Part shown: positions 15,836 through 16,201 of the stretch, one piece after another | Layout of the letters: every line of letters starts with the position of its first letter | Position numbering within the stretch: position 1 is the stretch's first letter | NCBI GenBank assembly: GCA_029260855.1 | Contig: JAJDCK010000005.1 | Span: 1-45,929 of the forward strand | DNA length: 45,929 nt | From: Candidatus Saccharimonadota bacterium | GTDB taxonomy: Bacteria; Patescibacteriota; Saccharimonadia; Saccharimonadales; OFTM59 | Direction of reading: 5' to 3' | Translations under genes and position numbers: made by a program | The notes under the pieces: generated by a model | The model's database searches: none | Told to the model about the DNA's origin: nothing | Seen by the model: the letters and a program-made list of their open reading frames with translations, nothing else

Positions 15836-15864
15836 TTGACATAATGTAATAAATTTGCTAGAAT
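15836..15864 (+). promoter_or_regulatory. Near-perfect promoter for a non-coding RNA
   Basis: TTGACA at 15836-15841, a spacer of exactly 17 nt and TAGAAT at 15859-15864. It points away from dprA, into a region without reading frames, and the predicted start is near 15871. Confidence 0.85.
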
Positions 15865-15870
15865 TGCAAT

Positions 15871-16201
15871 TCGTAAGCGGAATTATCCCGACTTACCGTA
15901 CCTTATACCCATTCTAACACCCTTCATAGCATTAGCGACGAATGGGAAGCGTTAGATTGTTTTAGAGCGTGCCGCGGGCTGAGTTGTTACCCTCCACTTA
16001 ATCTATTGGCGCTGGTCCTTAATTTATTATTGGCCGAATGCGCTCTAAAACAGACTAACCCCTTTAACCCCTGTCACCCCTGCGTTTTATTTGCAGTTTA
16101 AAGGGTCGACCAGGCATCACCAGGTGGAGTGAAAACTTCAAGGTGGGTTGAAGGGTGTAATAGACCTCCAGCGGTGCCCACCCCCACTGGAGGTCTTTTT
16201 T
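15871..16201 (+). ncRNA. Unidentified structured non-coding RNA, about 330 nt
   Basis: The segment is framed by a near-consensus promoter (15836-15864) and a strong intrinsic terminator (16162-16201), and it holds no credible reading frame. Stems seen: CCCATTC 15908-15914 with GAATGGG 15940-15946, overlapping TCTAAC 15913-15918 with GTTAGA 15951-15956 (alternative pairing or pseudoknot); an 11-bp stem 15959-15969 with 16041-16051; CCCTTTAA 16060-16067 with TTAAAGGG 16098-16105 enclosing CTGC/GCAG; CTTCAA 16136-16141 with TTGAAG 16148-16153. I find no tmRNA tag, RNase P core or SRP Alu/S motif. It is probably abundant, and its family is unknown to me. Confidence 0.75.
16162..16201 (+). terminator. 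Strong intrinsic terminator of the ncRNA
   Basis: A 10-bp stem (16162-16171 with 16187-16196) runs straight into six T. The reverse direction lacks a T-run, so it serves the plus-strand RNA. Confidence 0.85.

Follow-up and report, generated by a model that had tools for sequence, protein, structure and literature searches.

RNA gene between dprA and pth

The window, meaning the whole analysed stretch of 45,929 nucleotides, contains a free-standing RNA gene at 15836–16201 on the plus strand, located between dprA (PF02481) and pth (PF01195), both of which were assigned by domain and by synteny. Because dprA (15820–14954) and pth (16852–16220) both read left, on the minus strand, the RNA gene is divergent from its upstream neighbour dprA and convergent with its downstream neighbour pth. 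The promoter (15836–15864, plus strand) has the form TTGACA-17-TAGAAT with an extended −10 TGC, running from TTGACA at 15836 to TAGAAT at 15864, and matches the consensus at 11 of 12 positions in addition to the TG of the extended −10. Promoter-like sites of lower quality turn up readily by chance in such a scan (4 found, 3.9 expected). At the other end, a terminator stem (16162–16171/16187–16196) is followed by a T-run, and no open reading frame of at least 40 amino acids lies inside the gene. The transcribed part was set to 15871–16201 (plus strand) from the promoter spacing and the terminator, with homology over the whole stretch; as the start is placed at about 15871, the RNA would be about 330 nt long. 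The original prediction, which had claimed a promoted, terminated RNA of this length and without coding potential, was thereby confirmed. The transcript may, as had also been proposed, be abundant; the pointer to this is a promoter that is both strong and conserved.

Of 131 distinct homologous copies, 129 retain the promoter; TTGACA is present in 108, the 17-base spacer in 120 and the extended −10 in most of them, and the median inferred transcript is about 370 nt long. Either dprA or pth, or both, flank the RNA in 128 of these 131 copies; the other 3 match neither gene within the fetched flank. In family f4 (locus L213), the RNA and pth are separated by additional DNA that carries a small gene.

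Distribution

Homologues were found by blastn in 48 of 61 genomes, the own genome included. R1, a covariance model of the 5′ half of the RNA, matched 217 of 295 genomes of the order, distributed over 127 of 143 genera. Applied to a phylum-wide sample, the model hit 24 of 380 genomes, all 24 of them in the own order. A second model, R2, applied to class lists, gave matches in the own order only. Among the genomes searched, the RNA is restricted to one bacterial order. A pattern scan for the 3′ end in named genomes returned Saccharibacteria/Saccharimonadia, bins titled Patescibacteria, and untitled or evidently mislabelled bins; in the matches titled ‘Chloroflexi’ or ‘Parcubacteria’, a Saccharibacterial dprA or pth adjoins the RNA, and these bins look mislabelled.

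Six genomes of the same order without a model match carry the 11-mer TTACCCTCCAC; these sites have no adjoining dprA or pth, look like chance occurrences in coding sequence and were discarded. In genera g52, g58 and g62 of family f35, most genomes match neither model, and other genera of f35 do match; the RNA appears to have been lost or to have diverged strongly in these three genera.

Comparison with known RNA families

At gathering level, Rfam 15 returned two tRNAs in the window, neither of them in the RNA gene, and no match in 20 homologous loci. Under relaxed thresholds nothing credible was obtained for the RNA gene, the best E-value being 1.1 for a human lncRNA model. RNase P RNA (RF00010) and tmRNA (RF00023) were rejected as identities, the genome having its copies elsewhere, at G000:C17:14796-15137 (E = 1.2e-81) and G000:C9:43172-43554, respectively; ARAGORN finds no tmRNA at the RNA gene. 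SRP RNA was likewise rejected: no domain IV motif was seen and the lineage has no detectable Ffh M domain, as SRP_SPB was found in 0 of 21 genomes, compared with 14 of 14 positive controls, and the SRP RNA models RF00169 and RF01854 gave one weak chance match only in 26 genomes. Absence of SRP has been reported for other CPR bacteria (PMC4508563, PMC8080830); for the present order, no description of it was found in the literature searched.

The 6S RNA model (RF00013) has no match in the own genome; its silence means little, because it also misses several control bacteria. The single long hairpin with a central bubble that characterises 6S RNA is absent, the covarying architecture being multi-domain with a long-range helix, and a 6S identity is not supported. 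The earlier assignment as a structured RNA of unknown family, lacking hallmarks of tmRNA, RNase P RNA or SRP RNA, agrees with these searches, and the Infernal search that had been proposed as a check matched no known family. Searches of open full-text literature on 6S RNA, non-coding RNA and sRNA in Saccharibacteria turned up no description of such an RNA. The gene is best described as that of a previously unlisted, order-wide, single-copy structured RNA.

Secondary structure and covariation

The RNA folds with −114.7 kcal/mol, compared with −89.7 ± 5.5 kcal/mol for shuffled sequences (z = −4.5), and beats all 100 shuffles. The 5′ hairpin P1 (15873–15896), of which 121 of 129 homologues retain 6 or more pairs, is followed by the conserved single-stranded element GUACCUUAUACCC (15898–15910; GYACCUUAUACCC in relatives), which was recovered in two alignments. 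The long stem P3 joins UGUUUUAGAGCG (15958–15969) to CGCUCUAAAACA (16041–16052) in 12 bp and covaries strongly, with 10 of 11 pairs changed on both sides among 82 sequences. It is extended by P3ext, in which GUUAG (15951–15955) pairs with CUAAC (16055–16059). In the same 82 sequences of less than 80% identity, the structure made up of P3ext, P3 and the enclosed hairpin P4 has 94% of its cells paired and shows double-sided changes in 199 cells, against 48 in shuffles; it collapses when slid by one column.

The strand GUUAG is shared, as it can also pair with 15914–15918 in the upstream helix P2 (5′ strand UCUAAC, 15913–15918, with 15951–15956), which is an alternative to P3ext. Most homologues retain both options. 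Support for P3 and P3ext is good; P2, with 94% of its cells paired but few double changes in it, is likely. The original prediction had described a stem of 11 bp and a pair of competing stems: the former proved to be the 12-bp helix P3, and the latter is recognised in the two partners of GUUAG. Covariance analysis of the dprA–pth intergenic regions of Saccharibacteria, which had been suggested at the same time, was clearly positive.

Hairpin P4 (15981–15999) has the form GAGU-UGUUACCCUCC-ACUU in the window and AAGU-UGUUACCCUCC-ACUU in relatives. Its loop ACCCUCC is identical in 131 of 131 copies; some families of the order have CUACCCUCC loops or altered P4 stems of the form ACGU..ACGU. Further downstream, S1 (CCCUUUAAC, 16060–16068) and S2 (GUUGAAGGG, 16147–16155) form the long-range helix P6, which is almost always paired and shows compensatory changes at five pairs (first pair CG→GC, 3, followed by CG→UA, 2, UG→CG, 2, AU→CG, 1, and the last pair CG→GC, 11). 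Pairing of the P4 loop with S2 inside the RNA was considered and rejected, as family f17 changes S1 and S2 together and leaves the loop unchanged.

The terminator hairpin (16162–16196) presents the loop CGGUGCCCACCCCCA with an invariant GCCCACCC, around which 102 different stems occur. GGUGGG or GGGUGG stands directly upstream of S2 in 122 of the 131 copies; in L035, L040, L169 and L171, it is found in an inner hairpin only. A pseudoknot between GGUGGG (16142–16147) and CCCACC of the terminator loop is likely from the sequences, and it is beyond proof by covariation because its columns do not vary.

The 3′ domain (16069–16141 and homologues) comes in at least two unrelated-looking types on the same core, type A with CUUCAAGGUGGGUUGAAG in 17 copies and type B with GAYGCUUCRCU in 72. 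The local hairpin CUUCAA-GGUGGG-UUGAAG (16136–16153) of the type A domain, exact in 17 of 131 copies including the window, competes with P6. In L044, L045 and L018, the RNA accommodates large insertions of more than 100 nt, located upstream of S1 or in the surroundings of S2 and the terminator.

Complementarity to the hsp20 leader

An invariant loop within a covarying stem suggests a partner in trans, and the own genome (790 kb) was read whole. The 11-mer complement GTGGAGGGTAA occurs there once outside the RNA gene, and this single site is the ribosome-binding site of hsp20 (PF00011). The exact complementarity of hsp20 to P4 extends over 15 nt, and by duplex energy hsp20 ranks first of 785 leaders (−29.9, next −20.4). 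Taken alone, the evidence from this one genome is weak because shuffled hairpins reach similar counts and energies: the 3 leaders with at least 9 complementary nt are not above the shuffled hairpins (mean 1.6), and the best of 100 shuffled hairpins finds −29.5 kcal/mol somewhere in the same genome.

The hsp20 prediction was set down beforehand, and 800 kb of a genome from a different family (G445) then served as the test. The hsp20 gene of G445 carries TGGAGGGTAACAACT, a 15-nt exact complement to its own P4, and ranks first of 390 orthologues as well as first of 814 leaders by duplex energy, while the whole RNA, used as a control in sense, reversed or complement-only form, reached at most 9 nt. 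Among 11-mers of the form NNGGAGGNNNN, 4 of 4096, that of P4 included, kept at least 10 nt in any orthologous leader pair. The second-best orthologue pair is an aquaporin gene, with 11 and 10 nt complementary to the same hairpin P4 at the ribosome-binding site. The part of the prediction that concerned recA failed, only 4 nt being kept in G445, and an RNR gene, also predicted beforehand, is missing from those placed orthologues that have long matches in the own genome.

In a third family (L054), the complement to P4 is 18 nt long (AAGUGGAGGGUAACAACU) and stands directly before the AUG; the hsp20 site of this family also appears as a minus-strand match in the blastn search with the RNA (G050:C21). 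The three hsp20 leaders compared, from three genomes of three families, are unlike one another outside the site complementary to P4, and they fold no better than shuffled ones. Exact-pattern scans of viral contigs detected neither the 3′ motif of the RNA nor the hsp20 leader motif. By sequence, the RNA has two features of a base-pairing sRNA, namely its own promoter and terminator, and an exposed seed against a target conserved in three families.

Proposed function and alternative explanations

Since the invariant hairpin P4 matches the ribosome-binding site of hsp20 as an exact antisense, the RNA probably controls this gene. The reading preferred here, to which a probability of roughly 0.55 is given, is that of a structured, trans-acting base-pairing RNA that would block translation of hsp20. 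P4 would present its invariant loop UGUUACCCUCC as a seed, which would kiss the complementary ribosome-binding site of the hsp20 mRNA and zip into a duplex of about 15–18 bp that covers this site and nears or reaches the start codon. The 30S subunit would thereby be kept off, holding Hsp20 synthesis down until the message is released by stress or by a change in the RNA; the position of the duplex points to repression, not activation. The aquaporin gene, and perhaps dnaE, may be secondary targets with shorter conserved complementarity, giving a small regulon. The pseudoknotted terminator together with P6 would give the RNA stability of its own, and the mutually exclusive helices P2 and P3ext may open or close the P4 domain, so that a conformational switch is possible because the helices compete.

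Trans-encoded sRNAs of the RsaE/RNAIII type target Shine–Dalgarno sequences with C-rich loops, and the present RNA resembles them in its exposed C-rich loop directed against ribosome-binding sites, its own promoter and terminator and its free-standing gene. It differs from them in a more deeply conserved fold with a long-range helix and a likely pseudoknotted terminator, and in a seed that is invariant over the whole order. A crude motif scan recognised no Hfq-like protein. ROSE and fourU thermometers act in cis inside the leaders of small heat-shock genes; regulation at the hsp20 ribosome-binding site through base pairing, as proposed here, is common to both, but a separate RNA would supply the pairing strand in the present case, and the three hsp20 leaders lack better-than-shuffled folds of their own. 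With RNA polymerase-binding RNAs of the 6S/Ms1 type, the RNA shares the size range, the strong promoter and an apparent housekeeping distribution, and it is set apart by the missing 6S covariance match and by its architecture. Like SRP RNA, it is a conserved structured RNA of a reduced genome; unlike it, it shows no domain IV motif and occurs in a lineage without detectable SRP RNA and Ffh M domain.

Against the base-pairing reading, the depth of conservation and the complexity of the fold exceed the needs of a simple antisense RNA. A rival reading is the RNA of a housekeeping ribonucleoprotein, either 6S-like or of a new kind, in which P4 and the terminator loop are protein contacts, the match to hsp20 is secondary, and RNA polymerase, the ribosome or another protein is the partner. 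A single-copy, order-wide gene with a strong promoter, a likely pseudoknot and a long-range covarying helix recalls RNase P RNA and tmRNA, and no 6S RNA was found in the genome with RF00013, although the silence of a model that fails on several control bacteria weighs little. No long hairpin with a central bubble imitating an open promoter is present, however, and protein contact leaves 15–18 nt of exact antisense to one gene in three families unexplained; this possibility is accordingly regarded as less probable, yet worth keeping in mind. It is doubtful that the RNA is a bistable thermostat acting in trans, in which strand exchange, between P2 and P3ext and in some families between CUUCAA/UUGAAG and P6, would switch the P4-presenting, hsp20-repressing form on or off with temperature or host stress; if true, it would replace other heat-shock regulation of hsp20 across a whole order of epibiotic bacteria.

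Somewhat more doubtful still is a general mimic of the anti-Shine–Dalgarno sequence, whose ACCCUCC loop would bind any GGAGG message and broadly lower initiation at strong Shine–Dalgarno sites. The loop does contain CCUCC, GGAGG occurs at −18 to −4 in 50 of 789 own genes, against 3 in far-upstream controls, and 8 leaders are complementary over at least 8 nt (control mean 2.4); there is, however, no overall excess of leaders with at least 9 nt, and in hsp20 the complementarity runs on past the GGAGG core for about 10 nt and is preserved among the orthologues. That the hsp20 match is a coincidence and the function has nothing to do with base pairing is very unlikely: a shuffled hairpin will now and then hit a leader of comparable energy in a single genome, but hsp20 ranks first in two families and is complementary over 18 nt in a third, a result equalled by about 0.1% of comparable 11-mers. 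Hardly any weight is given to an action in cis on pth or dprA, for instance through interference with their transcription or through antisense overlap. The constant neighbourhood of these genes (128 of 131 copies) would fit it, but the RNA ends before pth and starts outside dprA, the intervening DNA in L213 separates it from pth, and interference needs neither a conserved structure nor invariant loops.

The base-pairing RNA favoured here would mirror in trans what the thermometers of small heat-shock genes do in cis, with the chaperone gene hsp20 as the predicted controlled gene. It would offer a first handle on post-transcriptional control in the reduced, host-dependent Saccharibacteria, most of which carry this new RNA family, whose fold is backed by covariation, whose locus is fixed and whose proposed target can be tested.

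Additional observations

Between pth and the RNA of L213 (2368–2450, family f4) lies a tiny open reading frame, MTKLKLNDFTQ, with its own terminator; its ribosome-binding site TGGAGGGTAACA is complementary to P4 of the RNA over 12 nt. A search by conserved motifs in the 790 kb of bin G000 did not find 16S rRNA, so that the bin is probably without rRNA genes. At the 789 gene starts of the own genome, TANN[AC]T hexamers peak 12–15 bases upstream of the start codons (55 genes at 12 and 37 at 13, background about 12); this peak suggests that many messages may be leaderless.
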